Positions 4,082 through 23,546 of a stretch of DNA of 32,914 nt are shown here, piece after piece. The translations under genes and the position numbers were made by a program. Under the pieces are notes generated by a model. It was given only the letters and a program-made list of their open reading frames with translations, ran no database searches and was not told the origin of the DNA. The first letter of the stretch is position 1; the number at the start of each line of letters is the position of its first letter. The stretch comes from Terriglobia bacterium (GTDB taxonomy: Bacteria; Acidobacteriota; Terriglobia; Bryobacterales; Bryobacteraceae): positions 1-32,914 of the forward strand of contig JAIQFN010000068.1 in assembly GCA_020073265.1 (NCBI GenBank), written 5' to 3'.

Positions 4082-4087
4082 TATACT
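4082..4087 (+). promoter_or_regulatory. Possible -10 element, leaderless start
   Basis: TATACT (4082-4087) matches a -10 hexamer at five of six positions and lies seven bases before the TTG at 4094. Transcription from it would begin close to that TTG, giving a leaderless mRNA. No convincing -35 is seen, so this is tentative. Confidence 0.3.
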
Positions 4088-4093
4088 GGACAA

Positions 4094-5500: not shown

Positions 5501-5515
5501 CGGGCGTTGGCCGGC

Positions 5516-6451: not shown

Positions 6452-6458
6452 GTTCGGG

Positions 6459-6782: not shown

Positions 6783-6846
6783 TTTTTGCCGGAATATTTC
6801 AGGATTGGGGCGGAGTTACAATGGAACTCCGAAGGTATTCGAACCT

Positions 6847-8802
6847 ATGTCAGCACCAGCTACAGCCGTCGTTCAACTGGCGGATCGAAGCACCCCGCTC
6901 GGTGCGACGATCGTTCCAGGCGGAGTGACACTCCGAACCTGGGCGCCGTCCGCAATACAAGTATTCGCACTTACCGGAGACTCGCTGGCCGCCGCGCGGC
7001 AACCGGGTTTCGTTCCCGCTGCCAGCCAGGCGTTGTCCTCGCTCGGCGACGGTACGTTCGCAGGTTTTTTGCCTGGAGCCGACGAAGGAACAACATACAT
7101 GCTCTGGGTTGTGGGCACCGGCAGCACGGGCCTGAAGCGCGACCCGCGCGCTCGCGAGTTAACGCCGGACTTCCCGGCCTCCGATTGCGTGGTGCGGTCT
7201 GCGTCGCTCTACCCGTGGCATGACGCTGGGTTCCGTCCGGCCGAGTTTCGCGACCTGATCCTGTATCAACTGCACGTGGGCGTGTTTTACGCCGTCGATG
7301 CGCAGGGCAACGACAAACGCGCAAACATCGGCAAGTTTCTGGACATTTTGGGTCGCGTCGATTATTTGCGCGAATTAGGCGTAAATGCCCTGCAGCTTAT
7401 GCCGATCCAGGAATTCCCGGGCGAGTCGAGCCGAGGCTACAACGGTCTCGACCTGTTTTCGCCGGAGATGGACTATGAGATTCGCGGCGCCGACCTGGCC
7501 CGCTACGTCACGAAGGCGAATGCATTGCTGACGGCGCATGGCAAGCCGCCGGTCACCGCCGACCAGTTGCGATCGGGAGCCAACCAGCTCAGGTGCGTTA
7601 TCGACATCCTGCATCTGAACGGAATGAGCGTTCTGTTCGACTTGGTTTTCAACCACGCCGGCGGCGGATGGGATGACGCCTGCCTTCAGTTCTTCGACCG
7701 GCAGCCGCAAGACAACCTGAACAACAGCCTGTATTTCACCGATCAGGGCTGGGTGGGCGGATTGATCTTCGCTTACTGGAGTCAGGACGTGCGGCAGTTT
7801 CTGATCGACAACGCGATGGCGTGTCTGGAGGAATATCACATCGACGGCATCCGCTACGACGAAGTGACGGTGATTGACACGCATGGCGGAGGACGTTTTT
7901 GTCAGGATCTCAGCGGCACGGCGCGTTTCGTGAAGCCGCAAGCGATCCAGATCTCGGAGTACTGGGGAGATGACCGCGCCGCTGCCGTCCGCACATCGCC
8001 TGGGGGACTCGGGTTCGATGCGGCCTGGGGCGACCGGGTGCGTGAAGGTGTGCGGACCGCGATCGCGCAAGCCGCCGGCGGCCGGGATGCTTTCGTGGAT
8101 CTGGGCGCGCTAGCCGCGAGTCTGGACAATCCGCCCGGATTCCCCGCGGCGTGGCAAGTGGTCAATTGCCTGGAGAACCACGATATCGTTTACGACGGCA
8201 ATCAGCCGAGGATCGCGGCACTGGCCGACAGAACGAACGCGCGTTCGTGGTATGCGCGAAGCCGCGCGCGAGTGGCCACCGGCCTGCTGGCGGCCGCGCG
8301 TGGAATCCCGATGCTCTTCATGGGCGAGGAATTCCTGGAAGACAAGCAGTGGGACGACAACGTCCAGTTTCACTCCAACCTGCTCATCTATTGGAGCGGC
8401 CTCAACACCGACCACGCGATGCAAGACCAGCTCCGGTTTACGCAGGACCTGCTGTGGCTGCGGCGCAACCAGCCTGCCTTGCGCAGCGATTCGATGCGGG
8501 TCTCGCGGGCGCATAGTATCGACCGCGTGCTGGCGATCCACCGCTGGATCGAGGGCGCCGGTCAGGACCTGCTGTGGGTCGTGAACCTGCAGGAGTTCAA
8601 TCGCTTCGGCTATCGCGTCGGGTTCCCGGGCGCAGGCGGCTGGAGCGAGTATTTCAACAGCGACTACTACGATCAGTTTCCTAACGCGTCGGCGGCCGGA
8701 AATGGCGGAGGCATCACGGCGGAAAACGTGGCGTGGGACGGCTTGCCCGCATCGGCGGAGATCACCATCCCGGCCAACGGGTTCATCGTGTTCGGCCGGT
8801 GA
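6847..8802 (+). CDS. GH13 alpha-amylase-family protein, glucan branching-enzyme-like
   Basis: A 651-residue glycoside hydrolase. An N-terminal beta-sandwich (about residues 15-120, with TLRTWAPSAIQVFAL) precedes the GH13 barrel. The four GH13 motifs are complete: DLVFNHAG (D265, H270), GIRYDEVTVID (nucleophile D338), ISEYWG (acid/base E371) and ENHD (stabiliser D446). LMPIQEFPGESSRGYN resembles branching enzymes and maltooligosyltrehalose trehalohydrolases. A C-terminal beta domain ends at FIVFGR. There is no signal peptide, so it should act in the cytoplasm on alpha-glucans. No glgA, glgC, treY or treS is adjacent. The frame extends upstream to 6649 over the ATL gene; ATG 6847, with GAAGG upstream, fits the domain start. 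It overlaps the converging GT4 gene by 20 bp. Confidence 0.85.
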   Translation: MSAPATAVVQLADRSTPLGATIVPGGVTLRTWAPSAIQVFALTGDSLAAARQPGFVPAASQALSSLGDGTFAGFLPGADEGTTYMLWVVGTGSTGLKRDPRARELTPDFPASDCVVRSASLYPWHDAGFRPAEFRDLILYQLHVGVFYAVDAQGNDKRANIGKFLDILGRVDYLRELGVNALQLMPIQEFPGESSRGYNGLDLFSPEMDYEIRGADLARYVTKANALLTAHGKPPVTADQLRSGANQLRCVIDILHLNGMSVLFDLVFNHAGGGWDDACLQFFDRQPQDNLNNSLYFTDQGWVGGLIFAYWSQDVRQFLIDNAMACLEEYHIDGIRYDEVTVIDTHGGGRFCQDLSGTARFVKPQAIQISEYWGDDRAAAVRTSPGGLGFDAAWGDRVREGVRTAIAQAAGGRDAFVDLGALAASLDNPPGFPAAWQVVNCLENHDIVYDGNQPRIAALADRTNARSWYARSRARVATGLLAAARGIPMLFMGEEFLEDKQWDDNVQFHSNLLIYWSGLNTDHAMQDQLRFTQDLLWLRRNQPALRSDSMRVSRAHSIDRVLAIHRWIEGAGQDLLWVVNLQEFNRFGYRVGFPGAGGWSEYFNSDYYDQFPNASAAGNGGGITAENVAWDGLPASAEITIPANGFIVFGR

Positions 8803-9895
8803 GCTGTTCGTGTGGGTCCGGTGGATGGAGGAATGGCGCCATCTTCCTGGCGAATTCGGTTTCGGAGAATCGGGCGGCGTAGGCCTGAAGGGCGCGGGGG
8901 TCGACCTGCTGTTCCGAGCGATCCCATTGTTCGATTGCTTGCTGGAGAGCTTCGTCGCTGGCTTGCGCGTAGAGCAGTCCGCCCAGCGGGTCGGTTGTCG
9001 GCACGCTCTCGAGCGCCCCGCCCCGCCCGAGCGCGATCACGGGCTTTCCGCTGGCCAGCGCTTCGACGGCCGTGATGCCGAAGTCCTCTTCGCCCGGCAT
9101 GAGAAAAGCGCGGCAGCGCGCGTAGAGTTCGCGCAACTCGGCGTCGCTCGCGCGCCCGCAGAATTCGATGTTGGCCGTGGCGGCGCGCTTCAACGACTTG
9201 AATTCCGGACCGTCGCCCACCAGCCGAAGCTTGCGGCCGTTGCGCGCGAATACTCGGACGGCTGCGTCCAAACGCTTGTAGGCGACGAACTCGGAGACGA
9301 TCAGGTAATAATCCTCCGGCGGCTTGTTGTAAAACGTCTCGACCGCCACGGGCGGATTCACCACCTCGGATTCGCGGCGATAGGTTTTCCAGATCCGCCG
9401 CCGGACGTTCGCGCTGTTAGCGACAAAATCGTCCACGCGCGCGGCCGAGGCGTAGTCCCACAGCCGGAGATAGTTGGCGAGCGGCGCCATGAGCGCGCGC
9501 TTCAGGCGCGAACGCGTCCATTCGTTGCGATAAGCCGGATAGAGGTCCCACAAGTACCGCATGGGTGTGTGGCAATAGCAGACGTGCCGCGCGCTGGAGG
9601 GCGCGATCACGCCCTTGGCCGGACCGGATTCGCTGGAGACCACCAGGTCGTAGCCGCGCAAGTCGAAGCTTTCGAGCGCCATCGGCATCAGGGGAAGCAG
9701 CGAGCGATAGCGTTTTCGAAAGGGCTGCAGGAAAGAAGCGTGCACGCGATGCGAGCGAATGAGCGGCGACACGCGATCGGGATCGTAGAACAGGGTGAAC
9801 AGATCCGCATCCGGCAGCAGGCGGCAAAGCGCCTCCACGACTTTTTCGCCGCCGCGCATGTTCAACAACCAGTAGTGGACGATGGCGGCGCGCAT
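8783..9895 (-). CDS. GT4 family glycosyltransferase
   Basis: A 370-residue GT-B glycosyltransferase. The N-terminal domain starts MRAAIVHYWLLNMRGGEKVVE, with the donor/acceptor loop GGEK, and includes CYCHTPMRYLWDLY. The C-terminal nucleotide-sugar domain has YYLIVSEFVAYKRLD, LVGDGPE and the E-x7-E motif EEDFGITAVE (about 269-278), typical of retaining GT4 enzymes. It probably adds a sugar, such as mannose, to a lipid-linked glycan on the cytoplasmic side. Starts at ATG 9893-9895. It is transcribed divergently from the flippase gene (53 bp between starts) and overlaps the GH13 gene tail to tail by 20 bp. Confidence 0.88.
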   Translation of the reverse strand: MRAAIVHYWLLNMRGGEKVVEALCRLLPDADLFTLFYDPDRVSPLIRSHRVHASFLQPFRKRYRSLLPLMPMALESFDLRGYDLVVSSESGPAKGVIAPSSARHVCYCHTPMRYLWDLYPAYRNEWTRSRLKRALMAPLANYLRLWDYASAARVDDFVANSANVRRRIWKTYRRESEVVNPPVAVETFYNKPPEDYYLIVSEFVAYKRLDAAVRVFARNGRKLRLVGDGPEFKSLKRAATANIEFCGRASDAELRELYARCRAFLMPGEEDFGITAVEALASGKPVIALGRGGALESVPTTDPLGGLLYAQASDEALQQAIEQWDRSEQQVDPRALQAYAARFSETEFARKMAPFLHPPDPHEQLTGRTR

Positions 9896-9948
9896 GCGGA
9901 AGTTCCGTAGTGGACTATCGTAGGAAGTATGCCACGCCTGGATCGCCG

Positions 9949-11319
9949 ATGAATACTTCCTTCGACTACCGGGCCGCCGCGCAACCTCGCCGGCTGACGA
10001 GCTGGCGCATGTTCGCGGACACGCTGACGGTGGGCGGCTGGACGGCGGTGACCAAGGTGGCGGGAGCGTTGAAGGTGATCCTGGCCGCGCGATTGTTCGG
10101 CGCGGGCGACGCCATGGACGCCTATCTCATCGCGCTGCTGGTGCCGTCGTTCTTCATGGACATGCTGGCGGGCCCGCTGGATTCAGCGTTGATCCCGTCG
10201 CTGATCGAAGCGCGCGAAAAGCACGGACGGGCGAGCGAGGAGGCGCTGTACACGGCGGTCTTGGCGTGTTCGGGCGCTACCCTGTTGATCGCCGCTCTGC
10301 TGGCTGTCGCGGCGTCCGGCTGGATCGTGCCGGCGCTGGGCGGCAGTTTTTCCGCCGGAAAACTCGCGCTTACGCAGCAACTGCTGCTCCTCATGATGGT
10401 GGTTGTGCCGCTCAGCGGACTCAGTTGCACCTGGCGCGCGGTGTTGAATTCTCACCATCAATTCGCTTACGCCGCCGCGGTGCCCGCCATCACGCCGGTG
10501 GTTTCGATCATCGCGCTTCTGGCCGGCGGAAAGCAGTACGGCGTGCTCACGCTGGCCATCGGCACGGTGGCGGGAGGAAGCCTGGAGGCGATCCTGAGTT
10601 GCGCTGGCGTCAAGAGGCTGGGATATCCGGTGCTGCCGCGCTGGACCGGAATGACGGCGTCGCTCGGCCAAGTGACGTGGCAGTACGCGCCACTGGTCGC
10701 GATCACGCTGGTGATGACTGGGTCGACGCTGGTGGACCAGGGGCTGGCGGCGCGGCTCGGGTCGGGCAGCGTAGCGGTGCTGAGCTATGGAACCAGGCTG
10801 CTGGGAGTGCTGATCGTGATAGGCCCGACCGCGGTGGGAACGGCGGTGCTGCCTCACATGTCGTCCGCGGCGGCGCGCGCTGAACCAGACGCCGGACGCC
10901 GGAGCCTGCGCACCTATGTTCTCTACATCGCGGCGCTCATCGTGCCGGCCACCATCGCGCTCATGTACTTCTCCGAGCCGATCGTCCGCATCCTTTTCGA
11001 GCAAGGCGCCTTCAGCCAAGAGGCCACGCATTTGGTAGCGGCCGTGCAGAGAGCGTCGCTGCTGCAGCTTCCCCTCACGGTACTGCTGTCGCTTGAAATT
11101 CGGCTGACCTCGGCATGGAAAGCGAACCGCTTGCTCTACCGCGTGGCGGCGTTGAGCGTGGTGCTGACGTTCGCGCTGGATCTGATCTTCATGCGGTGGC
11201 TGGGGGTGATCGGAATTGCATTGGCGGGCGTCGCGATCCGCCTTGTTTCGAGTTTGTATCTTTCTTGTAAAATCTACGCTTTGCGAGCCTCTTCCTCTGG
11301 CTTTTCAGCCCGTCGATGA
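9949..11319 (+). CDS. MurJ/MviN-type lipid-linked glycan flippase
   Basis: A 456-residue polytopic membrane protein of the MOP superfamily with about 12-14 hydrophobic segments. It shows GWTAVTKVAGALKVILAARLFGAGDAMDAYLIA-like N-terminal features, the FFMDMLAGPLDSALIPSL segment, and RILFEQGAFS, all typical of MviN/MurJ. These proteins flip lipid II or other undecaprenyl-linked saccharides across the inner membrane. Its location among glycosyltransferases and Wzy/Wzz genes suggests it exports the local polysaccharide unit rather than being the housekeeping MurJ. ATG 9949 has GGAT just upstream; GTG 9910 would add 13 residues. The HprK-related gene follows after 28 bp. Confidence 0.87.
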   Translation: MNTSFDYRAAAQPRRLTSWRMFADTLTVGGWTAVTKVAGALKVILAARLFGAGDAMDAYLIALLVPSFFMDMLAGPLDSALIPSLIEAREKHGRASEEALYTAVLACSGATLLIAALLAVAASGWIVPALGGSFSAGKLALTQQLLLLMMVVVPLSGLSCTWRAVLNSHHQFAYAAAVPAITPVVSIIALLAGGKQYGVLTLAIGTVAGGSLEAILSCAGVKRLGYPVLPRWTGMTASLGQVTWQYAPLVAITLVMTGSTLVDQGLAARLGSGSVAVLSYGTRLLGVLIVIGPTAVGTAVLPHMSSAAARAEPDAGRRSLRTYVLYIAALIVPATIALMYFSEPIVRILFEQGAFSQEATHLVAAVQRASLLQLPLTVLLSLEIRLTSAWKANRLLYRVAALSVVLTFALDLIFMRWLGVIGIALAGVAIRLVSSLYLSCKIYALRASSSGFSARR

Positions 11320-11347
11320 ATTAACCTGACATCGAACGCCAAGCCGT

Positions 11348-12334
11348 ATGCAGCACGACGTCTTCATCGAACCAATCCTCTCCGACCCGGTCCATTGTGA
11401 ATTCGAGTTGCCGCTGCGGCGCACCTTTTACCCGCTGGGATTTCCGTTGCAACTGGAGACCAATTCGCCCGATGTGATCGAAGCGGCGTCGGAGGGCTGG
11501 GGGCAATTCTCGCAGGCCTTCGATGAAACCGCGGTGCGGATGAGCCTGGCCGTGAGCGAGAGCGACACGACGCTTGTGAGTGTGCGCTCGCACGTCCGGT
11601 CACGCGAGCACCTGATGTCGTTCTTCGCCGATCCGGAAAACTTCGCAGTGTGCGATTTCAGTCAGAATTACGCGTTTGGCTGGGTGACGCGGGCGGTGGC
11701 GGCCGACCATCCGCTGCTCCGCTACCGCTTTCTGACAGCGCCCGGGCTCTCGCTGATCGGTCAACTGGCGCTGGCGCCGCTGCATGGCGCATTGATCGAG
11801 CGAGCAGGCTGCGGCGTAATGCTGTGCGGAGAATCCTTCGCCGGCAAGAGCACGCTGGCCTACGCCTGCGGGCGCGCGGGTTGGACCTTTATCGCCGACG
11901 ACGGGACTTGTCTGGTCCGGAAACGGCTGGACCGTTACGCGATCGGAGATCCTCACACCATCCGTTTCCGCGAAGATGCCGCGCGCTTCTTCGGCGAGTT
12001 AGCGGATCGGCTGCCGGTGATTCGACCCAGCGGCAAGACCGGCTTCGAGGTTTTCACCCGCGATCTGCCGCTGCGAACCGCGCCCGGATGTTCCGTCGAT
12101 CACATTGTGTTTCTCGACCGCCAGAGGTCCGGTGACGCCAGGATTCGCCGCTATCCGCGGGAGCAGGCGCTGGAGTACTTCGAACGCTTCGCGGCCTACG
12201 GCGTGTCGGAAGTGCGCGCCGCACAAAAGAGCTGCTACCGGCGCTTGATCGAAGCCGGTATCTGGGAGATGCAATACGCCGATTTGGACGACGCGGTCGC
12301 GTGCCTGGAGCGGCTGGCTGATCGGGCTTCATAG
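11348..12334 (+). CDS. HprK-related serine kinase-like protein
   Basis: A 328-residue protein whose C-terminal half resembles the kinase domain of HPr kinase/phosphorylase. It carries a Walker A loop GESFAGKST with K167 and S168, then FIADDGTCL with the paired aspartates D184-D185 at the place of the HprK catalytic region. The N-terminal half (1-150) lacks the normal HprK N-domain and is not recognised. No HPr, enzyme I or other PTS gene is present, so the target is unlikely to be HPr. Related HprK-like kinases occur in peptide-modification and polysaccharide clusters together with NTP_transf_5-type proteins, which fits the gene 3.3 kb downstream. It lies 28 bp after the flippase gene and 4 bp before the TonB receptor gene. 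Substrate is unknown. Confidence 0.75.
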   Translation: MQHDVFIEPILSDPVHCEFELPLRRTFYPLGFPLQLETNSPDVIEAASEGWGQFSQAFDETAVRMSLAVSESDTTLVSVRSHVRSREHLMSFFADPENFAVCDFSQNYAFGWVTRAVAADHPLLRYRFLTAPGLSLIGQLALAPLHGALIERAGCGVMLCGESFAGKSTLAYACGRAGWTFIADDGTCLVRKRLDRYAIGDPHTIRFREDAARFFGELADRLPVIRPSGKTGFEVFTRDLPLRTAPGCSVDHIVFLDRQRSGDARIRRYPREQALEYFERFAAYGVSEVRAAQKSCYRRLIEAGIWEMQYADLDDAVACLERLADRAS

Positions 12335-12338
12335 AGCG

Positions 12339-15300
12339 ATGAGAAACTACCGAAGCAAGATAGCGCGTGTCCTTTTCCTGGCTTGCTGGGCGCTCCCTTC
12401 GGCCGCCCAGGTTTCTTCCGGCAGCTTGCTCGGGGATGTGCGCGACCAAAAGAAAGCCACGGTGGAAGCTGTCACCATCGTCGCGCGCAACAACGAGACT
12501 GGATTTTCCCGAACTGCTTCGAGCAATGCGTTCGGCAGTTACCGCATCGACGATCTTCTTCCCGGGGCGTACACGGTGACCGCGCAGCACGATGGTTTTC
12601 AGACGGTCACCGTGTCGCCCGTTTTTTTGGAAGTGAATCAGAAGGCGCGGCTCGATTTCGAACTGCGCGTCGGCTCGGCGCACGACACGGTCACGGTGAC
12701 CGCACGCACGTCGCCGGTTCAGAACGACGACGCTTCAGAAGGCTATCTGCTGAGTTCCAATTTCGTAGAAGCGCTGCCGCTGCTGGGGCGAAACATCATC
12801 AGCCTGGTGACCTTAGGGCCGGGATCGATTCCACGGCAGCTCGGCGGCTTCACGCACGATCAGATCAACGATCTGCAGGGCAATCGCGGGGCCGTGGCGT
12901 TCAACGCGCCCGTGAACGGCGCACGCTCGACGGAGAACAGCTACATTCTCGACGGCGCTTACAACACCGACCGCAACGTCTTCGCGATCGGAGTGGTGCC
13001 TCCCATGGAGACGGTCGCGGAGTTTCGCATCCAGACCTCGCTCGCTCCGGCCGAGTTCGCGCAATCCGGAGGCGCCGTGGTGGACGTGGTTACCAAGCCG
13101 GGCAGCAGCGCATTTCATGGAAACGCGTTCGAGTTCCTCCGCAATGAGGCCACCGACGCAAGAGGTTTCTTCGAGGTCCCGTCGCTCGCGCGGGCGATCT
13201 TCCGTCAAAACCAATACGGAGCCACGCTGAGCGGTCCGCTGGCGCGATCGACTTACTTCTTTGCGTCCTACGAAGGGCTGCGTTCGAAGTCCGCCAACTC
13301 GACGCAACACCTGGTGCCCGACGCCACCGTCCGGGGCGGCGATTTCACTGGCCGCGCCACGATTTTCAATCCGCTGAATCTGGACGCCAACGGGCAGCGA
13401 GTGCCCTTTGCCGATAACCGGATTCCGGCCAGCATGATCGACAAGGCGGCGGCAAAATACCTGGCGCTGTACGAGCCGCTCCCCAACGCGACGCTGGGGA
13501 ACGGCAGCAACTACCTGGATTCGACGCCTAACCGGGATCACGCCGACAACGGATCGATGCGCATCGATCGGGCCTGGGGCCAGCGCAGCCGTTTGTTCGG
13601 CCGCTACACCATCAATGACGACCGGTCTCTGCTGGCGGGATCCTTTCCGGCGCTGCCCACGGCCGAGACGCTGCGGGCGCAGCAGGCCACCATCGGACAC
13701 ACGCTCTCCGGATCGTCGTGGGTGAACGAAACGCATTTATCATTCACGCGCCTGAGGGTTTTCGATCTGGCCACCAGCGGCCTGGGAAAGAACGTGCTGG
13801 CGGACCTGGGAATTCAGGGCGCGCCTGCCGATCCATTCACCTTCGGCCTGCCCGCGCTCACCGTGACCGACTTCGACACGGTGCAGGACTCGCGCAACCT
13901 TCCGCAAACGCAGCGCGACAACACCTGGTACTTTTCCTCCGACTTTTCGAGAAGCGTGGGCCGTCATACCTGGAAGGCCGGCTTCCAGTTCACGCATTTC
14001 ACCATGGCGTATCTGCAGAGCATGTATCCGCGCGGGAACTATATTTTCACGGGCGCTTACACGCAGGATCCATTGAACCCGGACACCACCGGCGATTCGT
14101 TCGCGGATTTTCTGCTCGGCTATCCGGCTCAGACGCAACGCCAGGCCGGAATCGCGCAGGCTTATCTGCGGCAGAACACCTACGCCGGCTACGTCGAAGA
14201 CGACTGGCGGATCACGCCGCACATCAGCATCACGGCCGGATTGCGTTATGAATACATCGCGCCGTTCAGCGAAGATCGCGGCAATCTGTTCAACCTGGAT
14301 TACTCGACGCTGCCCCAGGCGCCCCTGCTCCGGCACGTCAGCACCGTGACCGAGACCGACCGGCGCAACTTCGCGCCGCGCATCGGATTGGCGGCCAGGC
14401 TGCCGCATCTGCTTTCGAGCACGCGCGAGACGGTGTTTCGCGCCGGCTACGGAATCTACTACAGTCCCGAGATCGCGGTGGAAGCCTACGATCTGTTGCA
14501 GAACGGCGTCCGAACGGAGATCAACCAGCCGGGCGGCCTGCAGCCGGTGCTCAGCATCGAGAACGGCTTCCCGCAGACCAGTTCCACGGGTTTTCCCAGC
14601 TACTTCGGCATCGACCCCCACGCCGCGACGCCGTACGTGCAGCAATGGTCGGCGAGCATCCAGCATGAATTGCCCAGCCAGGTACTGGTGGAGCTCAGTT
14701 ATGTGGGGACGAAAGGCACGGACCTGGCGCTGTTCCGACGCTTCAACACGCCGGCGCACGTGGAGACCGGCGAGAATCTATCTCCGCGCCCCGGTGACCT
14801 GCAATCGCTGCGGACGTTCTCCCAACTGGGCCCGCTATTTCAGATCCAGCACATCGCCAACTCGATCTATCACTCGCTGCAGATCAAAACCGAGAAGCGA
14901 TTCACCAAGCGGCTCTCGTTCCTGGCGAGCTTCGTGTGGGCCAAGTCGATTGATGACGCCGACACGCAGATTCCGGGCTTGTTCGAAAGCTTCGGCGCGC
15001 AGGACGAGCGCAACCTGCGCCTGGAGCGCGGCCTGTCGTTCTTCGATGTTCGCCGCCGGTTGAGCGGTGGCTACGTGTATTCGATTCCCGCGGCGCCGGT
15101 CTGGAAGCCGGCGTTGAAAGACTGGCAACTCAGCGGCACCTTCACGTTTCAGGACGGAACGCCTCTGAATCCGGTGTACTTCGGAACCGATTTCGCGAAC
15201 TCCGGCACGCCCAACCGGCCCAACGTGGTTCCGGGCCAGGCGGTGTTGCTGCCAAGCGGCCAGCGCAACGCCGACCATTTCTACAACGTCAACGCGTTTT

Positions 15301-15566
15301 CGTCTCCCGCGCCATTCACCTTCGGCAACGCCGGCCGCGACATTTTGCCGGGTCCGGGCAACGCGGTGGTGGACGTCGCGCTGCACCGGCAGTTCACCAT
15401 CCGGGAAGGTAAAACCATTCAGTTTCGCGCAGAGTCCTTCAACCTGGTGAATCATCCCAATCTCGGAGTTCCCGGCCCCTACCTGGACTTCGGCCCGTTC
15501 TTTGGCAAGGCCTTTTCGGTGGGTGACCCACGGCGCATGCAATTTGCTCTAAGATTCGATTTCTGA
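12339..15566 (+). CDS. Oar-like TonB-dependent outer-membrane receptor
   Basis: A 1075-residue secreted protein. A signal peptide (about 1-23, ending PSAAQ) is followed by a carboxypeptidase-regulatory-like beta domain (25-112, with NETGFSRTASSNAFGSYRIDDLLPG-type features), a plug domain (about 120-250, with NSYILDGAYNTDRN and VVDVVTKPGS), and a large beta-barrel ending in Phe (RFDF). This architecture is the Oar/TonB-receptor family that is greatly expanded in Solibacter-like Acidobacteria. Substrate cannot be read from sequence; glycans, peptides or siderophores are all possible. It starts 4 bp after the kinase gene, so the two are probably translated from one message. Its TGA overlaps a potential CTG start of the next gene. 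Confidence 0.9.
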   Translation: MRNYRSKIARVLFLACWALPSAAQVSSGSLLGDVRDQKKATVEAVTIVARNNETGFSRTASSNAFGSYRIDDLLPGAYTVTAQHDGFQTVTVSPVFLEVNQKARLDFELRVGSAHDTVTVTARTSPVQNDDASEGYLLSSNFVEALPLLGRNIISLVTLGPGSIPRQLGGFTHDQINDLQGNRGAVAFNAPVNGARSTENSYILDGAYNTDRNVFAIGVVPPMETVAEFRIQTSLAPAEFAQSGGAVVDVVTKPGSSAFHGNAFEFLRNEATDARGFFEVPSLARAIFRQNQYGATLSGPLARSTYFFASYEGLRSKSANSTQHLVPDATVRGGDFTGRATIFNPLNLDANGQRVPFADNRIPASMIDKAAAKYLALYEPLPNATLGNGSNYLDSTPNRDHADNGSMRIDRAWGQRSRLFGRYTINDDRSLLAGSFPALPTAETLRAQQATIGHTLSGSSWVNETHLSFTRLRVFDLATSGLGKNVLADLGIQGAPADPFTFGLPALTVTDFDTVQDSRNLPQTQRDNTWYFSSDFSRSVGRHTWKAGFQFTHFTMAYLQSMYPRGNYIFTGAYTQDPLNPDTTGDSFADFLLGYPAQTQRQAGIAQAYLRQNTYAGYVEDDWRITPHISITAGLRYEYIAPFSEDRGNLFNLDYSTLPQAPLLRHVSTVTETDRRNFAPRIGLAARLPHLLSSTRETVFRAGYGIYYSPEIAVEAYDLLQNGVRTEINQPGGLQPVLSIENGFPQTSSTGFPSYFGIDPHAATPYVQQWSASIQHELPSQVLVELSYVGTKGTDLALFRRFNTPAHVETGENLSPRPGDLQSLRTFSQLGPLFQIQHIANSIYHSLQIKTEKRFTKRLSFLASFVWAKSIDDADTQIPGLFESFGAQDERNLRLERGLSFFDVRRRLSGGYVYSIPAAPVWKPALKDWQLSGTFTFQDGTPLNPVYFGTDFANSGTPNRPNVVPGQAVLLPSGQRNADHFYNVNAFSSPAPFTFGNAGRDILPGPGNAVVDVALHRQFTIREGKTIQFRAESFNLVNHPNLGVPGPYLDFGPFFGKAFSVGDPRRMQFALRFDF

Positions 15567-15616
15567 CCGAATTCGAACCAAACATCCCCGCCTATGCCCG
15601 CGCGCCGTTCGAAGCT

Positions 15617-17998
15617 TTGCGCTTCGGTGCGCCGCGGCTGGAACTGCTGAGCGCTTTCAGCGAACAGGATTGGAAGCGAGCGCTGGACTGGTGCGATCGC
15701 ATGCAACTGACGCTGGCGCTCGGGTTGCGCCACCGCGAACACATGCCGGAAGCGGTGCAGTCGCGAGTCGATTGCGACTTCGCGAAGAACGCGCAACGCT
15801 GGCTTCGCATGAAGTCGGTGTACGAAGAAATCGCGACGGCGTTGGCGGCCGAGGGATTGGAATGCGTGGTTCTGAAGGGTTTCAGCCACTGCCCGCGCTT
15901 CGTACGCGATCCGAGGCATCGCTGGCAGGGCGACCTGGATCTTTTGCTGACCGAACCGCAGGTCCGGCAGGCGCGTGAAGTCGCTTTGGGATTGGGATAC
16001 GAACCGCTGCGGCGTGTGGAACGGCGGCCGCTGGATCACCTTCCGACTTTGATCCGCCGGACCGGATGGCGGTGGCGGGGCGACTATTTCGATCCTGAGA
16101 TGCCGGTGTCGCTGGAGTTGCACTTCCGGCTGTGGGATCAACGGACGGAAGACTTCGGCCCGAGCGGGCTGGAGCACTTCTGGGAACGTCGCGCGCGCGC
16201 GGTGGTCGACGAGTTGAAGTTCACTGCTCTGCACCCGGCCGACGCGGTTGCGAACGCGTCGCTGCATTTGCTCCGGCACTTGCTGCGCGGCGACTTGCGG
16301 CCGTCGCACGTGTACGAACTGGCCTGGCTGCTGGACAACAGCGTGGACGACGCGGATCTGTGGCGATCCTGGCGCGAGCTGCACGGCGAATCGCTGCGGC
16401 GTTTGGAGGCCATTTCGTTCGCGCTGGCCGAACGGTGGTTCGCTTGCCGGCTTCCCGAGGCGGCGCGCGAAGGGGTCGATCGGCTTCCTGAGGACGTGAA
16501 GCGCTGGCTGGAGATGTATGCTGCTTCGCCGCTCGAGAGCAGATTCCATCCGAATAAAGACGAACTGTGGCTGCACTGGAGCCTGCTGGATTCGTCCGGC
16601 GCGCGGATGGCGGTGCTGCGGCGCAGGCTGCTGCCGGAGCGGTTGCCGGGCCCGGTGGAAGCTGTGCACGTGCCGGAGAAACAGCGAACGTTGCGAATCC
16701 GCCTGGAAGGGCGCTGGCAGTTTTTCGTCTACGCCTCCTCCCGCGCGCTCCACCACACGCGCGCGCTGCCTGCCACAGCCTGGAGCGCGGCGCGATGGTT
16801 CGGCGGCGGCATCGGGTTGGGCGCGCAATACTGGCGGTTCTTCTTCGCCGAAGGATTTTTTGACTTCGGCATGTTTATTTTCGTTTTCCTGTACAACCTG
16901 TATCTGCTCCAGCTTGGCTTTCGGGAAAACTTCATCGGGTTGATATCGGGGGTCATGACAGCGGGCAGCGTGGTGGGATCTCTGGTTGCCGCGCTTGCAA
17001 TCCAGCGCTTCGGCCTGAGAAGAACGCTGCTGATTTCTTTCGGACTGACGGCGTCGCTTTCCGCCTTCCGCGCGTATGCGACGTTCGCACCGGAGCTGCT
17101 GGGGCTGGCTTTTGCAGCAGGCTTGACGTCTTCGGTGTGGCCGGTGGCTTTTTCGCCCGCCATCGCGCACCTGACGAACAACAAGAATCGAGCGCTGGGA
17201 TTCAGCCTCTCATCGTCAGCCGGAATTGCCATCGGGATCGTGGGCGCGCAGGCTGCGGGACGCTTGCCGGGTTGGCTTTCGCGGCTCGGTTGGGCGTCGT
17301 CCACGCTGTGGTCCTACCGGGAAGCTTTGCTCGCAGGCTGTGTGATGGTGGGGCTCGCCATCTGGACGTTTTCCGGAGTCAGCATGGGCTCCGCGCCGGC
17401 GCCCGAAGCGCGAAAGCTTCACCGGCCCAGCCCGCTGGTACTGCGTTTCTTGATCGCGATGCTGGCGTGGAACCTGGGCACCGGTGCTTTGAATCCGTTC
17501 TTCAACGTGTTTTTCTCGCGGCACGTGGGCATGCCGGTGGAGCGCATCGGGATGGTGTTTTCCGGATCCCAGATCGCCCAAGTCATCGCAATCCTGGCCG
17601 CGCCCATCGTGTTCCGGCGTTTCGGTCTGACGCGCGCCATTTCCGGAATGCAGTTCGCCACCGGGCTGGCGCTGGTGGGACTGGCGGCGGCCAGCGGTCC
17701 GGCCTGGGCCGCGGCGGGTTACTCGGCCTACATGATGACGCAGTACATGAGCGAGCCCGGCATGTTTACTTTGCTGATGGAAGGCGCCCCGGTCGCCGAA
17801 CGCGGCAGCGCGTCCGCTTTGAATTTTCTGGTGTCGTTTGCCGGACAGGCGATCGCCGCGGCGGTGGCGGGCCAGATGCTGGCGCGCTTCGGATATCCGC
17901 CGGTGTTTCTGGCTGCCGCGGTCATATGTGGCGCTGCGGCGTTGCTGTTTCGCGTTCTGCTCGACAAAGCGAGACCGAGCGCTCCATCAAATCCGTGA
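15617..17998 (+). CDS. Nucleotidyltransferase-like (NTP_transf_5 type) domain fused to an MFS transporter
   Basis: A 793-residue two-part protein. Residues 1 to about 380 resemble uncharacterised nucleotidyltransferases (NTP_transf_5): VVLKGFS with K87-G88, then GDLDLLL with G105, D106 and D108 as the presumed metal site, then SLELHFRLWD and a helical tail with SHVYELAWLL. From about residue 405 to 785 there are some 12 hydrophobic helices of a Major Facilitator transporter, beginning GMFIFVFLYNLYLLQLGF. The only standard start before the homology is TTG 15617. The frame stays open upstream, and residues encoded from CTG 15563, which overlaps the TonB stop as CTGA, read as natural protein (TEFEPNIPAYARAPFEAL), so the true start may be CTG. 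The 3' end overlaps the opposing GT4 gene by 77 bp. The fusion is unusual and its role unknown. Confidence 0.82.
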   Translation: MRFGAPRLELLSAFSEQDWKRALDWCDRMQLTLALGLRHREHMPEAVQSRVDCDFAKNAQRWLRMKSVYEEIATALAAEGLECVVLKGFSHCPRFVRDPRHRWQGDLDLLLTEPQVRQAREVALGLGYEPLRRVERRPLDHLPTLIRRTGWRWRGDYFDPEMPVSLELHFRLWDQRTEDFGPSGLEHFWERRARAVVDELKFTALHPADAVANASLHLLRHLLRGDLRPSHVYELAWLLDNSVDDADLWRSWRELHGESLRRLEAISFALAERWFACRLPEAAREGVDRLPEDVKRWLEMYAASPLESRFHPNKDELWLHWSLLDSSGARMAVLRRRLLPERLPGPVEAVHVPEKQRTLRIRLEGRWQFFVYASSRALHHTRALPATAWSAARWFGGGIGLGAQYWRFFFAEGFFDFGMFIFVFLYNLYLLQLGFRENFIGLISGVMTAGSVVGSLVAALAIQRFGLRRTLLISFGLTASLSAFRAYATFAPELLGLAFAAGLTSSVWPVAFSPAIAHLTNNKNRALGFSLSSSAGIAIGIVGAQAAGRLPGWLSRLGWASSTLWSYREALLAGCVMVGLAIWTFSGVSMGSAPAPEARKLHRPSPLVLRFLIAMLAWNLGTGALNPFFNVFFSRHVGMPVERIGMVFSGSQIAQVIAILAAPIVFRRFGLTRAISGMQFATGLALVGLAAASGPAWAAAGYSAYMMTQYMSEPGMFTLLMEGAPVAERGSASALNFLVSFAGQAIAAAVAGQMLARFGYPPVFLAAAVICGAAALLFRVLLDKARPSAPSNP

Positions 17999-19076
17999 TG
18001 CGTTCCTGATAAACCGCGAGCGTGTAGGAACGCTCCCAGGTTTGCCGCGCGTTCGCGACGATCCTGCGCAGCGAATCCGGCTGGGTGGTCATGACGGTGG
18101 CGATCCGGTCCGCCAGAGCCTCGGACGACTTTTCGGGCGCCAGGAATCCGGTTTCGCCATCGACCACCAACTCGGGAATTCCTCCGGTTGGATAAGCAAC
18201 CACCGGCACGCCGGCCGAGAAAGCCTCCACCACCACGCGGCCCATGCCTTCCTGCCTGGACGGAACCACCAGCAGATCCAGATCCGCGAAGACCGAAGCG
18301 ACGTCATCGCGCCAGCCGAGAAACTCGACTGGCAAGCCGCGCGCCTGGCTTTGGACCCGATTGAAATAAGCGGGGTCCGCGAACAACGGCGCGCCGCAGA
18401 TGAGAAATTTCGCGTTCGGGAATTTGGGATGAAGCAGGGCTGCGGCGTGAACGAACTCAGCCTGGCCTTTTTCCGGACTGATCCGGCCGACTACGCCGAT
18501 GCGCCAGCCTGCTTGGCGGCCGAACGCGCGCTCGCGAAACTGGATTTCGGGCACGCCATTCGCGATGACTTCCAGCTTGGCCGGGTCGATGTATCCGCGG
18601 AAAAGCTGCAGCACCGAATCGCTGCAGGCCGCAACGGTGGCGTTGGCCCGCCGGACGCTCCGGGCGGCGAGATTCAGAGCCGAGCGTTGTGGAATGTGGC
18701 TGTGTGCTCGAAAAACTACCGCAGTGCGTTGACGCGATGCGAGCACGGCCGCGGCCGGCAGCAATCGCGGCCCGTTGACGAAGATCAGGTCGAATGAGAC
18801 GCGATTCATCAGGTCGCCGAGAATGCGCACCTGCGCTTTGCGATCGGCGACGAAACGGAGTGCGTCCGCGATCGTCTTGGTCCCTGAATGATACGGCCCG
18901 CAGGGGATTTCGGTCACCGGCACGTTTCGTGCTTGAAGCTGCCCGACCAGCTGCCCCGCGCCGGGGACAGCGGCCCAAGCCTGCCAGCCGCGCTGCTCGA
19001 CGGCCGCCAATGTTTCAAGAAGGCTGCGCTGCGCGCCGCCCATTTCGCTGAATTGATCGAGAAAAAGAATCTTCAC
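17922..19076 (-). CDS. GT4 family glycosyltransferase
   Basis: A 384-residue GT-B glycosyltransferase. It begins VKILFLDQFSEMGGAQRSLL, with the GGAQ acceptor loop typical of GT4 proteins. The C-terminal half has IGVVGRISPEKGQAEFV, FLGWRDDV, and the E-x7-E pair in RQEGMGRVVVEA, then PTGGIPELV. GTG 19074-19076 is the start because it overlaps the upstream gene's stop as GTGA and sits right before the first beta strand; the frame further upstream is antisense translation of the O-antigen-ligase gene. It is the last gene of the Wzz-Wzy-GT4 operon. Its final 77 bp overlap the convergent fusion gene, an unusually long antisense overlap. Sugar specificity is unknown. Confidence 0.9.
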   Translation of the reverse strand: MKILFLDQFSEMGGAQRSLLETLAAVEQRGWQAWAAVPGAGQLVGQLQARNVPVTEIPCGPYHSGTKTIADALRFVADRKAQVRILGDLMNRVSFDLIFVNGPRLLPAAAVLASRQRTAVVFRAHSHIPQRSALNLAARSVRRANATVAACSDSVLQLFRGYIDPAKLEVIANGVPEIQFRERAFGRQAGWRIGVVGRISPEKGQAEFVHAAALLHPKFPNAKFLICGAPLFADPAYFNRVQSQARGLPVEFLGWRDDVASVFADLDLLVVPSRQEGMGRVVVEAFSAGVPVVAYPTGGIPELVVDGETGFLAPEKSSEALADRIATVMTTQPDSLRRIVANARQTWERSYTLAVYQERITDLMERSVSLCRAERETATPQRHI

Positions 19077-20485
19077 GCTTCTTGCCGCGCCGCCAATGCC
19101 AGCACCAAGGAGTACACCGGAAGGATGCGCCAATAGGTGAGCAGATCGGCCGAGAGCATCTGCACTACCTGGCCGGACCAGAAGCACAGCATCCAGGTTC
19201 CGCAAAAAGATCGCAGTTCGCCGGTGGAGCGGGCGGCGCGATACGCCGCGACGAGGATCGCCGCATTGAGCGCCAGGACGGCGGCCAGCCCAGCGATGCC
19301 GGTTTCCGCCAACAACGTCAGGTAGGTGTTGTCGCCAACGGCGGTGCTCCCGATGAAATCCGAGTAAGGCAGCGTCTTGTATCCCACGCCCACCAGCGCG
19401 TGCCAGGGGTTCGACGCCAGGAAGTGAACCAGCGACTGCCAGCTCTGGACGCGGCCGCTCAGCACCATGTCGGGCGACTCGCCGAAATATTGGAACGCGG
19501 CCCACACGCGCTGCCAGTAGGCCGAGGTGACGCGCGGGAACGCGATTCCCAGGATGGCCACTGAGGCGGCGCCGAAGATGCCTGCTCCGAAGGCCAGCCG
19601 CCGCCAGCGAATCCGGTCGCGGTGGAACCAGAACAGAACCGCGAGCGCCACGGCGAGATTCACCAGCGAGGCGCGCGAATAGGACAGCACCAGAGCCGCG
19701 GCCAGCGCCGAGCCTCCCGCCAGGAGCGCAACCGGCGAAACCAACCGGGCTCCGCGAGGCCGGAACAGCGCCACAGCGATCATCTCGAGAAAAAACGCGC
19801 ACAGGTTGCCCAGCGTGCTGGCTTCGTAAAAGATTCCCTGCGCGCGACGAAAAACTCCAGTTTCAAGCCAGATGAACTGTTGTTCGTAGCCGGCCGGCGC
19901 GGGGAACTGAAAATAGAAATCGACGCAGGCGAACAGGGCCGAGATGGACGCCGCGTAGAACAACCATCGAATCCAGCGGAACGATTGCCCTGTCTCCAAG
20001 CGGCCGGGACCGTTGCGGACGTAGAGGAACACGTACACGGAGACGCCCAGCAGCAGCACGCGCGCGAAACTTCCGGCGGCGATGGGAAAGCCGGAGTAGA
20101 TCAACGCGGGTCCGATGCTGGCCATCAGGATGGCCGGAAGTGCCAGGATGGAGAGCGTTAAGGCGTCGGCCTGGAAGCGCCATTCCGCCAGGCGCAGGAA
20201 GCCGATCAGGAGTCCAGCGGCGGCGAAGAGAATTGCGACGTGCGGCCCGGAGTCACCCAGGTGGATGGGAAGCGGCGGCAACAGCAGCGCGCATCCGAAG
20301 AACAGCGCCAGCCAGGAATTCGGGGTGCGAAGGATGCGCCAGACCAGCGGCACGCAGACTAAGGGGGCGCACAGGACCGCTTTCCAAGCCAGGCCGGGCG
20401 CCAGAGCCACCACGGCCGCATAGAGACCAAGCGCTAGACCGGCCAGAGTTTCACGCCGGTCCGGTGCGCGCAGCGCAGCGATCAT
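19073..20485 (-). CDS. O-antigen ligase / Wzy-type polymerase family protein
   Basis: A 470-residue inner-membrane protein with about 12 predicted helices and a periplasmic loop around residues 315-385. The loop contains SGRVQSWQSLVHFLASNPWHALVGVGYKT-like features and GDNTYLTLLAETG, matching the Wzy_C/WaaL signature (an Arg-rich periplasmic loop before GxNxxLxxxxExG). Such proteins polymerise or ligate undecaprenyl-linked oligosaccharides. Overlaps the Wzz-like gene (ATGA) and the GT4 gene (GTGA) at its two ends, so all three are translationally coupled. Pairing with Wzz favours polymerase over ligase. ATG 20483-20485. Confidence 0.85.
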   Translation of the reverse strand: MIAALRAPDRRETLAGLALGLYAAVVALAPGLAWKAVLCAPLVCVPLVWRILRTPNSWLALFFGCALLLPPLPIHLGDSGPHVAILFAAAGLLIGFLRLAEWRFQADALTLSILALPAILMASIGPALIYSGFPIAAGSFARVLLLGVSVYVFLYVRNGPGRLETGQSFRWIRWLFYAASISALFACVDFYFQFPAPAGYEQQFIWLETGVFRRAQGIFYEASTLGNLCAFFLEMIAVALFRPRGARLVSPVALLAGGSALAAALVLSYSRASLVNLAVALAVLFWFHRDRIRWRRLAFGAGIFGAASVAILGIAFPRVTSAYWQRVWAAFQYFGESPDMVLSGRVQSWQSLVHFLASNPWHALVGVGYKTLPYSDFIGSTAVGDNTYLTLLAETGIAGLAAVLALNAAILVAAYRAARSTGELRSFCGTWMLCFWSGQVVQMLSADLLTYWRILPVYSLVLALAARQEA

Positions 20486-21585
20486 GCACGCATCCCGCGC
20501 GACATCGCCGGCTCGAAGCCTACGGGCCGCCGCCGGTACACGAACGCAATGCTGAGGTAGACGAACGAAGCAACCAGCGCCACCAGGATCGCGGCGGCGA
20601 CATTGAGCGGGATGTTCGGCGAACTGGGCCGCTCGGGAACGATTCCCGGGTCGATCACCCGCAACTGCTCGGCGTGGGCGCCGGCGGTGGCTCGCATCTC
20701 ACGCACGCGCGCGGTGTCCGTAGCGTAGGCGGTCTGTGCAACGTCCAGTTCCGACTGCAAGGCATCCCGCTCGGCGGTTCGGCGGGCCAGCGTAGCGCTC
20801 TTCTGTTGAATCTCGCGAGATAATTCCTGGACGCGCTTTTCGAGCAAAACCGCACGAGCCTGCGCCGCCCGCATTTGCTCACGGCCAAATTGGCCGGCAT
20901 CGGGAGTTTGCTGCTGATACTCGGCGACGTTGGCCTGCGCATCTACCAGCTCTTGGCGCAACTGGCCCCGCAGGGCCACCACCGAGTCAATCTCGCTTTG
21001 CAGCGACTCGACCGGCGCGCCGGTGGCCAGAGTGGTCCAGGCTTTCTGCGCCCGCTCCAAGCGCGCGTGCGCCTCCGTCGCCTGCTTCTGAGCCTCTTGT
21101 ATGAAAGGACTGTCCGACGCCGCATTCTCCGCCCGGCTCATGCTCACGGTCTCATTGGCAAGGAACTGCGCGACTCCCTGGGCCTGCTTGGGATCCCGAA
21201 GCGTCACGCTGATTTCCAGGATCTTGGTGTCCCGGATTTTGGACACCTTCAGAACGGCTCGCTTCAGCGACTCGACGGCTTGCGAGCCGCCGGCGCCCCG
21301 CAGATGAAACCGGTCGACCGCGCGCGTGAACAGGCTGTCGCTGGTGGCGAAGCGTTCGTAGGTCTTCAACGACTCCAGGTAAACGGCGCTCACCGCCGTT
21401 CCCACGCGCACATCATTTCCGCCGGGCGGTTCGATGACGATGCTAGCGGTGGCGGTGTAGCGCTTCGGAAGCAGGAGACTCACGGGCAGCGAAATCAGCA
21501 CTGCGGCGCTCAGGGCGGCCGCGAACACGCGCCACCGCCGCCGGAGATACTCGAGGTATTCGAAGGCATCAAATGAGTCGTACAT
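20482..21585 (-). CDS. Wzz-like polysaccharide chain-length determinant
   Basis: A 367-residue inner-membrane protein of the Wzz/PCP family. It has a short cytoplasmic N-terminus (MYDSFDAFEYLEYLRRRWR), a first membrane helix (about 22-42), a Wzz beta/alpha domain with ATASIVIEPP, a long periplasmic coiled coil (about 180-310, rich in Gln, Ala, Glu and Arg), a PERPSSPNIPLN proline-rich approach, and a second helix (about 327-350). No cytoplasmic tyrosine-kinase domain follows, so it is a PCP-1-like protein or depends on a separate kinase. It controls polymer length with the downstream Wzy-like protein. ATG 21585 is selected because the hydrophilic Wzz N-terminus begins there; the open frame upstream runs into the divergent gene. 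Confidence 0.87.
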   Translation of the reverse strand: MYDSFDAFEYLEYLRRRWRVFAAALSAAVLISLPVSLLLPKRYTATASIVIEPPGGNDVRVGTAVSAVYLESLKTYERFATSDSLFTRAVDRFHLRGAGGSQAVESLKRAVLKVSKIRDTKILEISVTLRDPKQAQGVAQFLANETVSMSRAENAASDSPFIQEAQKQATEAHARLERAQKAWTTLATGAPVESLQSEIDSVVALRGQLRQELVDAQANVAEYQQQTPDAGQFGREQMRAAQARAVLLEKRVQELSREIQQKSATLARRTAERDALQSELDVAQTAYATDTARVREMRATAGAHAEQLRVIDPGIVPERPSSPNIPLNVAAAILVALVASFVYLSIAFVYRRRPVGFEPAMSRGMRA

Positions 21586-21622
21586 AGTGTTTCTGCCCGC
21601 CACGTGCGCTAGCCTGTTCGAT

Positions 21623-23498: not shown

Positions 23499-23527
23499 TT
23501 GCCTGGTTCGGGTCCCTCGCCTATAGT
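23499..23527 (+). promoter_or_regulatory. Sigma-70-type promoter for the TIGR03437-like gene
   Basis: TTGCCT (23499-23504) and TATAGT (23522-23527) match the -35 at four of six and the -10 at five of six positions, with a 17-bp spacer. Transcription would start near 23534, just before AGGGA (23535-23539), which lies 7 bases from ATG 23547. The leader would be only about 13 bases. Confidence 0.6.
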
Positions 23528-23546
23528 GAGCCCTAGGGACACGATC

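Follow-up and report, generated by a model that had tools for sequence, protein, structure and literature searches.

Gene content of the locus

The locus described here raises the question of whether a flippase, an HprK-like kinase, an Oar-type receptor and an NTP_transf_5-MFS fusion lying in a row on one strand form a single system, as an earlier note had proposed, and what such a system would act on. It lies in a stretch of 32,914 nucleotides from a Terriglobia bacterium of the Bryobacteraceae, a family of soil acidobacteria (contig JAIQFN010000068.1), hereafter the window. Open reading frames and domain matches place all four genes on the + strand. The exopolysaccharide (EPS) cluster that surrounds them (Wzy, Wzz, initiating transferase and glycosyltransferases) is absent from the earlier note. 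Below, L, G and C numbers are our own for loci, genomes and contigs, and f2 is a sister family.

8783..9895, - strand: GT4-type glycosyltransferase, divergent neighbour, conserved in many relatives (domain matches)
9949..11319 (alternative start GTG 9910), + strand: MurJ-family flippase (PF03023, E 1.4e-56)
11348..12334, + strand: HprK-like kinase, core gene (family profile matches, alignment of 33 relatives, solved-structure matches)
12339..15566, + strand: Oar-type outer-membrane receptor, accessory, with signal-like N-terminus, CarboxypepD_reg and OMP_b-brl_4 barrel (domain matches; 16 of 32 same-contig relatives leave a gap of receptor size)
15563..17998, + strand: fusion of a core NTP_transf_5 domain with an accessory MFS carrier (domain matches; start CTG 15563 probable, TTG 15617 by ORF rule)
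17922..19049, - strand: GT4-type glycosyltransferase, convergent neighbour, start uncertain (domain matches, relatives' loci)
19073..20485, - strand: Wzy_C (O-antigen ligase/polymerase) type protein (domain match)
20482..21672, - strand: Wzz-type chain-length determinant (domain matches)
21587..23470, + strand: second Wzy_C-type protein (domain match)
24457..25131, - strand: initiating sugar phosphotransferase, EPS_sugtrans-like (TIGR03025, E 1.7e-47, below its cut-off)

The gaps of 28 and 4 nt reported earlier stand, while the 50-nt gap before the last gene holds only for a start at TTG 15617, which is probably too late because the profile of relatives aligns already from 15572. As judged from the sequence, translation probably starts at the in-frame CTG 15563, which overlaps the receptor TGA stop (15564-15566) by 4 nt. 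Neither promoter-like sites (1 vs 1.6 in shuffles) nor terminator-like sites (12 vs 10.1) stood out above shuffled sequence.

The flippase, which the earlier note had counted in, was rejected as a member of the module: it was next to the kinase in only 6 of 35 loci by BLAST, with several more added by a profile search, and its place is among the EPS genes. Of the two MurJ-family genes in the genome it is the lower-scoring one (193 vs 392 bits, PF03023), and it reaches 191.9 bits against the MurJ lipid II flippase model TIGR01695, below the cut-off of 235.55. Probably, it serves the EPS cluster as a Wzx-like flippase.

Conservation of the linkage in relatives

The linkage of kinase, receptor and NTP_transf_5-MFS fusion, which the earlier note had asked to be checked, recurs in related genomes of the family. 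Among 121 family genomes, the window's own included, 41 match the NTP_transf_5-MFS protein strongly; all of these carry the kinase, which was found in 43 overall. Where a single contig holds both genes (32 genomes), kinase and NTP_transf_5 gene are separated by either 48-176 nt (15 genomes) or 3.25-3.6 kb (16 genomes), the latter being the room taken by the receptor, with one case of 2.2 kb. Since it recurs across family genomes, the gene arrangement is more than chance.

The wider set, built with profiles, thresholds and scripted gene calls made for this analysis, comprised 114 loci, reduced to 88 distinct ones, of which 67 hold both core genes; after short matches were dropped, 59 entered the NTP_transf_5 tree, with one very long branch (L170), and 57 the kinase tree. 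The core is the kinase with NTP_transf_5, and receptor and MFS are optional accessories with a joint occurrence: both are present in 24 of the 67 loci, MFS alone in 9, the receptor alone in 1 and neither in 33. Thus 24 of 25 receptor loci carry MFS, the sole exception (L091) lying at a contig end. The association test is weakened because the loci share descent, and a descent-aware test gave only 3 well-supported independent pairs (mean 1.7 concordant, 0 discordant, 1.3 without difference). Fisher values for the family-genome counts and for the receptor/MFS, radical SAM and Wza comparisons ignore shared descent.

Partners of the core vary. In f2, MFS and NTP_transf_5 are separate neighbouring genes, and in L154, L155, L156, L163, L165 and L168 a stand-alone MFS gene adjoins the kinase gene (profile scores 300-402). 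G344 and G612 carry NTP_transf_5 and a Poly_export/SLBB (Wza-type exporter) protein in a single frame; in G360, G400, G545, G573 and G596 NTP_transf_5 stands immediately before a Poly_export/SLBB gene. Other module loci contain B12-radical-SAM arrays. No locus of the 67 has both these and MFS, 33 having MFS only, 16 radical SAM only and 18 neither (p 3e-6, descent ignored; L076, L158 and L160 counted on a single match 5-7 kb away), and 7 descent-aware pairs gave a mean of 2.7 opposite and 0 same. As the loci are not independent, the idea of two alternative accessory sets was kept as description only.

Predicted enzymes

The Pfam family nearest to the kinase is Hpr_kinase_C (PF07475, E 2.9e-07; 30.6 bits, below the cut-off of 33.3), and the best solved-structure matches of its profile are HprK (E 8e-07). 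An alignment of 33 relatives places the P-loop at about residues 161-168, with His146 and Asp184-Asp185. By pattern, 35 of 36 kinase copies carry the P-loop, L090 being the one without it, and Asp-Asp is replaced in some copies (Gly-Asp in L081 and L083; Asp-Glu in L067 and in the first copies of L065 and L089). The best NCBIfam match is HprK-related kinase A (TIGR04352), whose P-loop and Asp region align, yet the score of 32.6 bits lies below the equivalog cut-off of 200. With the bifunctional HPr kinase/phosphorylase (TIGR00679; solved structures 1ko7 and 1jb1) the P-loop, the preceding His and the Asp-Asp region align, but over only ~60 residues and with a score (27.8 bits) below the cut-off of 240.

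The last gene joins NTP_transf_5 (PF14907, E 3.3e-30; 105.9 bits, above the curated cut-off of 31.2) and MFS_1 (E 7.9e-30) in one frame. A DxD followed by a later carboxylate is a nucleotidyltransferase motif; D106, D108 and E178 of the domain are invariant in 17 sequences, and the K-G...DxD motif is present in all 28 copies. A simple scan gave 10 hydrophobic segments in the MFS half (residues 417-781).

EPS neighbourhood and proposed role

Like a Wzx/Wzy-type EPS cluster, the window has a flippase, two Wzy_C proteins, a Wzz, an initiating transferase and glycosyltransferases; it differs by the added module and by the lack of a Poly_export (Wza) gene on its contig (C53), the genome's two matches being on C49 and C63. 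The module reads as EPS-linked because a Wzy-, Wzz- or Wza-type gene is present in 50 of 72 distinct loci of at least 11 kb, and an EPS-type gene of some kind in 61. No Wzy/Wzz/Wza-type gene was found in the other 22, some of which are short contigs; loci without one include the receptor-bearing L066, L069, L073, L075 and L110, as well as six loci of f2 in which the kinase is accompanied by NTP_transf_5 or MFS (L154, L155, L156, L166, L168 and L169).

We tentatively propose, with a probability of about 0.4, that the module is an EPS-attached tailoring pair with its own transport arm, which phosphorylates and then caps a small component. The HprK-like kinase would phosphorylate a hydroxyl of this component, for instance a sugar, a polyol or another building block of the EPS. 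By analogy with pseudomycoidin, the NTP_transf_5 domain may then take the phosphate as acceptor and add a nucleotidyl or glycosyl group. Substrate or product would pass the inner membrane by the fused MFS and the outer one by the TonB-type receptor, perhaps rather in the direction of export, and the neighbourhood suggests that the component would be built into, or released with, the EPS of the adjacent genes. Against this reading, EPS genes are not universal, the link of receptor and MFS is not independent of descent, and some kinase copies deviate.

Comparison with lasso-peptide clusters

The titles and abstract openings of the literature searched do not name the module, and in the literature found the kinase/NTP_transf_5 pair appears only as a lasso-peptide tailor. 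According to a review, an HPr-kinase homologue (K) and a nucleotidyltransferase (N) lie side by side as tailoring pair in the paeninodin and pseudomycoidin clusters; in the latter an NTP_transf_5 relative is reported to add hexoses to the phosphorylated lasso peptide, giving a precedent for the two enzymes acting in turn, kinase first, on one acceptor, and N also occurs fused to the B2 protease (PMC8498205). The module thus shares with the reported lasso pair the adjacency of the same two families and the fusion of N to a cluster protein. It differs in having EPS genes, receptor and MFS, and cyclase, PqqD, B2 and precursor were not found nearby. That this sole precedent in the literature found acts on a peptide was counted against an EPS component as substrate.

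If the module were a peptide-modifying (RiPP-like) system whose precursor is encoded elsewhere, it would use the pair in the same way as reported for lasso clusters (PMC8498205), the kinase phosphorylating a C-terminal serine, NTP_transf_5 glycosylating the phosphate, and MFS and receptor exporting or re-importing the peptide. The window's genome itself has a lasso cluster on C95 (cyclase, PqqD, B2, HprK-like and NTP_transf_5 genes) and a YcaO/SagB cluster on C33 (PqqD-HprK protein and NTP_transf_5), and the B12-radical-SAM arrays of other module loci point the same way. Yet the module pair has low similarity to the C95 pair (28% and 24% over aligned parts), and its surroundings are polysaccharide genes. 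The earlier note had seen no Asn synthetase, PqqD or precursor peptide, and this extends to relatives: across 30 genomes that carry the module, the matches listed include neither gene within 20 kb of it. An all-against-all comparison covered 3177 ORFs (22-120 aa, none inside a larger gene) from 114 loci, duplicates included; it gave, among the clusters listed (25 at most, each with at least 3 different sequences), no plausible precursor-like ORF that recurs in fused-type loci. On this evidence we regard a RiPP-like role as unlikely.

The small-ORF clusters that include fused-type loci (L096, L102, L121) look like shadow frames, being by position on the strand opposite to adjacent GT4/Wzy/Wzz genes, and were set aside. 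Two further clusters, both from f2 loci, do resemble genuine small proteins: one, in 8 loci, has a CxxCH motif and was read by eye as cytochrome c, and the other, in 4 loci, was judged cupredoxin-like, also by eye.

Receptor and direction of transport

The receptor matches CarboxypepD_reg (PF13620, E 5.7e-19) and OMP_b-brl_4 (PF25183, E 4.1e-201), both above cut-off, and TonB_dep_Rec_b-barrel with 19.9 bits, below the cut-off of 27. A TonB-box-like stretch follows its first domain (by eye, against the consensus); the domain search gave no Plug match in it, and one in the L168 receptor. By family type, namely an N-terminal carboxypeptidase-regulatory-like domain and a large barrel rather than direct sequence comparison, it is likened to Oar of Myxococcus xanthus, a TonB-dependent transporter reported as needed for PopC secretion (PMC6434023).

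An Oar-type gene nearby means little by itself, because the window's genome has ~51 (79 match pieces merged). This abundance, together with the 15 of 32 same-contig pairs that leave no room for the receptor and the receptor-MFS statistics limited by descent, would suit an account in which only kinase and NTP_transf_5 serve EPS, receptor and MFS being passengers or having another purpose. However, the module receptor is one tight subfamily in the window's family: most receptors scored also served to build its profile, but five that did not (L096, L100, L108, L110, L121) reach 1640-1803, while 20 paralogues from the window's genome, scored on the barrel part, reach 210-494. Of 17 kinase/receptor junctions in relatives, 10 are overlaps of exactly 4 nt; a different Oar-type gene (410-480 bits) directly precedes the kinase in L105, L155, L163, L165 and L168; and MFS, a fused domain in the window's family, is a neighbouring gene in f2. 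We hold this account of the accessories to be unlikely.

As a further alternative, receptor and MFS might import a sugar or polyol, which the kinase would phosphorylate and NTP_transf_5 convert to an NDP-activated donor for the glycosyltransferases. Kinase and nucleotidyltransferase follow the usual order of nucleotide-sugar salvage, as in AmgK/MurU or fucokinase/GDP-fucose pyrophosphorylase, and the EPS neighbourhood would fit. Most known TonB-dependent transporters are reported to import (PMC6434023). Nonetheless, NTP_transf_5 is no known sugar-nucleotide pyrophosphorylase family, and its fusion partners are an exporter-type protein and, in reported lasso clusters, the B2 protease; we hold salvage to be quite unlikely.

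The boldest version, a self-contained trans-envelope pathway in which a glycan component, given a phosphate-linked cap by kinase and nucleotidyltransferase, would leave through the fused MFS and a TonB-powered Oar-type channel, a non-protein export replacing Wza where absent, seems very improbable. Module receptor and long-type Wza share no locus (0/22 vs 12/50, p 0.013, descent ignored), but within loci of the window-family type the comparison gives 0/22 vs 4/31 (p 0.13, descent ignored), and long-type Wza is also missing in 27 of 31 such loci without the module receptor. Built on only three long proteins, the long-type profile may overlook short ones; these are covered by a genome search for Poly_export, which found such genes somewhere in all 41 genomes searched. 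The idea of the receptor in place of Wza was retained only as part of this boldest version.

Implications

Returning to an EPS-attached tailoring pair, a fixed pair of enzymes that lies mostly beside polysaccharide genes and is joined to an MFS in one family and a Wza-type protein in another suggests phosphate-linked tailoring of a sugar-coat component. Moreover, one Oar-type receptor, of a kind that the window's genome has in dozens, gains stable genetic partners, and its substrate and direction of transport therefore become testable.

Gene borders and locus of the module

The window is the entire contig C53 (32,914 bases) of a draft genome of 6.4 Mb in 131 contigs, and the four genes proposed in the earlier note, encoding a flippase, an HprK-like kinase, an Oar-type receptor and an NTP_transf_5-MFS fusion, are present in the order and on the strand claimed. 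Glycosyltransferases (GTs) flank them at either end, and further genes nearby encode two Wzy_C-type proteins, one of Wzz type and an initiating sugar phosphotransferase, which places the four genes inside an exopolysaccharide (EPS) cluster. The gene starts considered were:

9910 (GTG) or 9949 (ATG), + strand, candidate starts of the flippase gene
15617 (TTG), + strand, start of the fusion gene by the ORF rule
15563 (CTG), + strand, probable start of the fusion gene at the opening of its frame, with a 4-nt overlap with the receptor stop TGA (CTGA, 15563-15566)

Relatives align to the fusion frame from 15572, upstream of TTG 15617. In relatives the overlap measures exactly 4 nt at 10 of 17 junctions between kinase and receptor, and at 7 of 12 where the kinase directly adjoins NTP_transf_5. 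Together with the CTG overlap, this makes translational coupling of the module genes likely, and the 50-nt gap between receptor and fusion is probably not a real gap. The CTGA of the window corresponds to an ATGA often found in relatives. At its other end (17922-17998) the fusion gene overlaps a convergent GT4 gene by 77 nt, as is likewise called at locus L061; many relatives have an overlap there of about 70-106 nt. A secreted-looking protein lacking a Pfam match (23499-24374; cluster c1) recurs in the EPS locus of 10 of 35 loci.

Conservation of the linkage

Among 121 genomes of the family, matches at E <= 0.001 were obtained in 49 for the fusion protein and 53 for the kinase, with paralogues making up many of the weaker matches; strong matches were found in 41 and 43 genomes respectively, all 41 lying within the 43. 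Kinase and NTP_transf_5 share a contig in 32 genomes, separated by 48-176 nt in 15, by 3253-3597 nt in 16 and by 2158 nt on opposite strands in one (G034), and lie on separate contigs in 9. In the regions inspected, the long gap is the receptor gene. Gene order was compared in 34 relative regions plus the window and in 59 scan loci, many genomes being common to both sets. The common order is a divergent GT, sometimes the flippase, the kinase, sometimes the receptor, and NTP_transf_5 with or without MFS, followed by a convergent GT, Wzy, Wzz and Wzy2. The linkage of kinase, receptor and fusion recurs across related genomes, so the observation withstands the refuting condition set in the earlier note; the proposed four-gene unit is not borne out, since the flippase is only sometimes part of this order. 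All 59 scan loci, from a collection of 84,980 species, are by title Acidobacteriota, although the scan used a pair of peptide patterns and can overlook distant relatives.

Core and accessory genes

Deduplication left 88 distinct loci, 67 of which hold both core genes, kinase and NTP_transf_5. The MFS part accompanies them in 33, an adjacent receptor in 25 and both in 24, the sole receptor locus without MFS (L091) lying near a contig border. B12-radical-SAM matches occur in 16 of the 67 and never alongside MFS or an adjacent receptor; some are grouped in arrays, of five at most, together with methyltransferases, others are single and distant. Two to five B12-binding radical-SAM genes stand near the core pair in L081, L083, L086, L133, L141, L157 and L172. 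MFS and receptor each require 8 changes on the NTP_transf_5 tree, and 9 and 10, respectively, on the kinase tree. A descent-aware test of receptor against MFS gave, for three well-supported pairs, a mean of 1.7 concordant, 0 discordant and 1.3 equal, too few for significance. What stays constant is kinase and NTP_transf_5, mostly beside polysaccharide genes; what varies is transport or radical-SAM chemistry.

Among the 72 distinct loci that are 11 kb or longer, 61 have an EPS-type gene of some kind and 50 a Wzy-, Wzz- or Wza-type gene (39 of 53 loci from the window's family or the scan, 11 of 19 from the sister family f2 and other inspected regions). The 22 loci devoid of the latter include receptor-bearing L066, L069, L073, L075 and L110, as well as L154, L155, L156, L166, L168, L169, L170 and L173. 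Short contigs account for only part of these, so the module can occur with no polysaccharide cluster beside it, which makes a role confined to EPS less likely.

Fused and unfused forms

Family f2 belongs to the same class, and 24 of its genomes, from a 396-genome phylum sample, match the kinase at E <= 1e-40. A separate MFS gene homologous to the fused half lies beside the kinase in L154, L155, L156, L163, L165 and L168, scoring 300-402 with the MFS profile (447-595 for intact fused proteins). An Oar-type gene directly precedes the kinase in L155, L163, L165, L168 and L105 (Sulfotelmatobacter). With the module-receptor profile these score 410-480, which is where 20 paralogues from the window's own genome also fall (210-494, scored over the barrel), whereas receptors of the window's family outside the training set reach 1640-1803; on these scores, recruitment of an Oar-type receptor seems to have happened repeatedly. 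A barrel-like outer-membrane protein with no Pfam match (cluster k3) lies near the kinase or NTP_transf_5 gene in L154, L155, L156, L159, L164, L166 and L168 of f2, accompanied by a small CxxCH and/or cupredoxin-like protein recognised by eye and, in L168, by a sulfatase and a sulfatase-modifying enzyme.

NTP_transf_5 also shares a single open frame with a Poly_export/SLBB (Wza-type) protein in two genomes:

L202:2315-6436, - strand, genome G344, ORF of 1373 aa
G612:C1:3954215-3958537, frame of 1463 codons

The exporter's signal-like sequence comes after the NTP part, and a predicted cytoplasmic domain preceding an exporter signal sequence is topologically odd. G431, of the genus of G344, has a Poly_export match in a frame as long as that of G344 (1378 codons), and NTP_transf_5 directly precedes a Poly_export gene on the same strand in G360, G400, G545, G573 and G596.

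Enzyme motifs and the lasso pair

Of 36 kinase copies, 35 show the P-loop by pattern (L090 does not), and His146, G161, G166 and K167 are invariant in 33 aligned copies, L090 left out. In place of Asp-Asp, L081 and L083 carry Gly-Asp, while L067 and the first copies of L065 and L089 carry Asp-Glu. The latter two hold tandem kinase genes (L065:5938-8119; L089:894-3033), with Asp-Glu after the P-loop in the first copy. The best solved matches are HprK structures, and scores fall far under the cut-offs of every named HprK model. NTP_transf_5 carries K-G...DxD in 28 of 28 copies and an invariant E178 in 17 sequences; among solved structures, the best hit of the fusion profile, an organic cation transporter at E 0.021, is not convincing.

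In the literature found, functional precedent for the pair was limited to lasso tailoring. The review PMC8498205 reports, for lasso clusters, an HPr-kinase homologue phosphorylating the C-terminal serine, a pseudomycoidin nucleotidyltransferase adding one or two hexoses onto the phosphate, and lasso-cluster nucleotidyltransferases sometimes fused to a B2 protein. The window's genome has further NTP_transf_5 copies on C33 (two), C81, C91 and C95, and C10 has one match under the cut-off. Two settings are:

L198 (G000:C95:1-16000), 4039-9558, lasso-type cluster: NTP_transf_5, cyclase, HprK-like protein, PqqD, B2
L199 (G000:C33:1-18000), 4108-11783, TOMM-like setting of the same enzyme pair: YcaO, SagB-type, PqqD-HprK, NTP_transf_5

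On C95 the cyclase scores 758 bits (cut-off 525) and B2 93 (cut-off 33), PqqD being assigned by Pfam; on C33 the C-terminal part of the PqqD protein reaches 130.8 bits against HprK-related kinase A (cut-off 200). C81 combines PqqD and an HprK-like protein with NTP_transf_5. The window pair shares 28% and 24% identity with the C95 pair over aligned parts and, by sequence, is a different branch. Among the matches listed for 30 genomes that carry the module, none to Asn-synthetase or PqqD falls within 20 kb of it; where one shares the module's contig, the closest are a weak match about 40 kb off (G073) and a separate cluster about 44 kb off (G512).

Possible role of the module

The simplest account is that kinase and NTP_transf_5 would carry out phosphate-based tailoring of a component that belongs to the EPS or is released together with it, and that receptor and MFS would be a dedicated pair transporting it. 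As to direction, two things lean towards export: the proteins to which NTP_transf_5 is fused (a Wza-type protein here, B2 in lasso clusters) and the part that Oar plays in PopC secretion (PMC6434023). The order of kinase then nucleotidyltransferase leans towards import of a sugar and its salvage. According to PMC6434023, no features are known that tell receptors which secrete from those which import. A bolder reading, in which a glycan product leaves by a TonB-dependent export route, is weakly supported. The earlier interpretation is half right: the module is a variant of a known enzyme pair, in which two transport genes are linked to the two core genes, mostly in an EPS locus, and the flippase does not make a fourth member.
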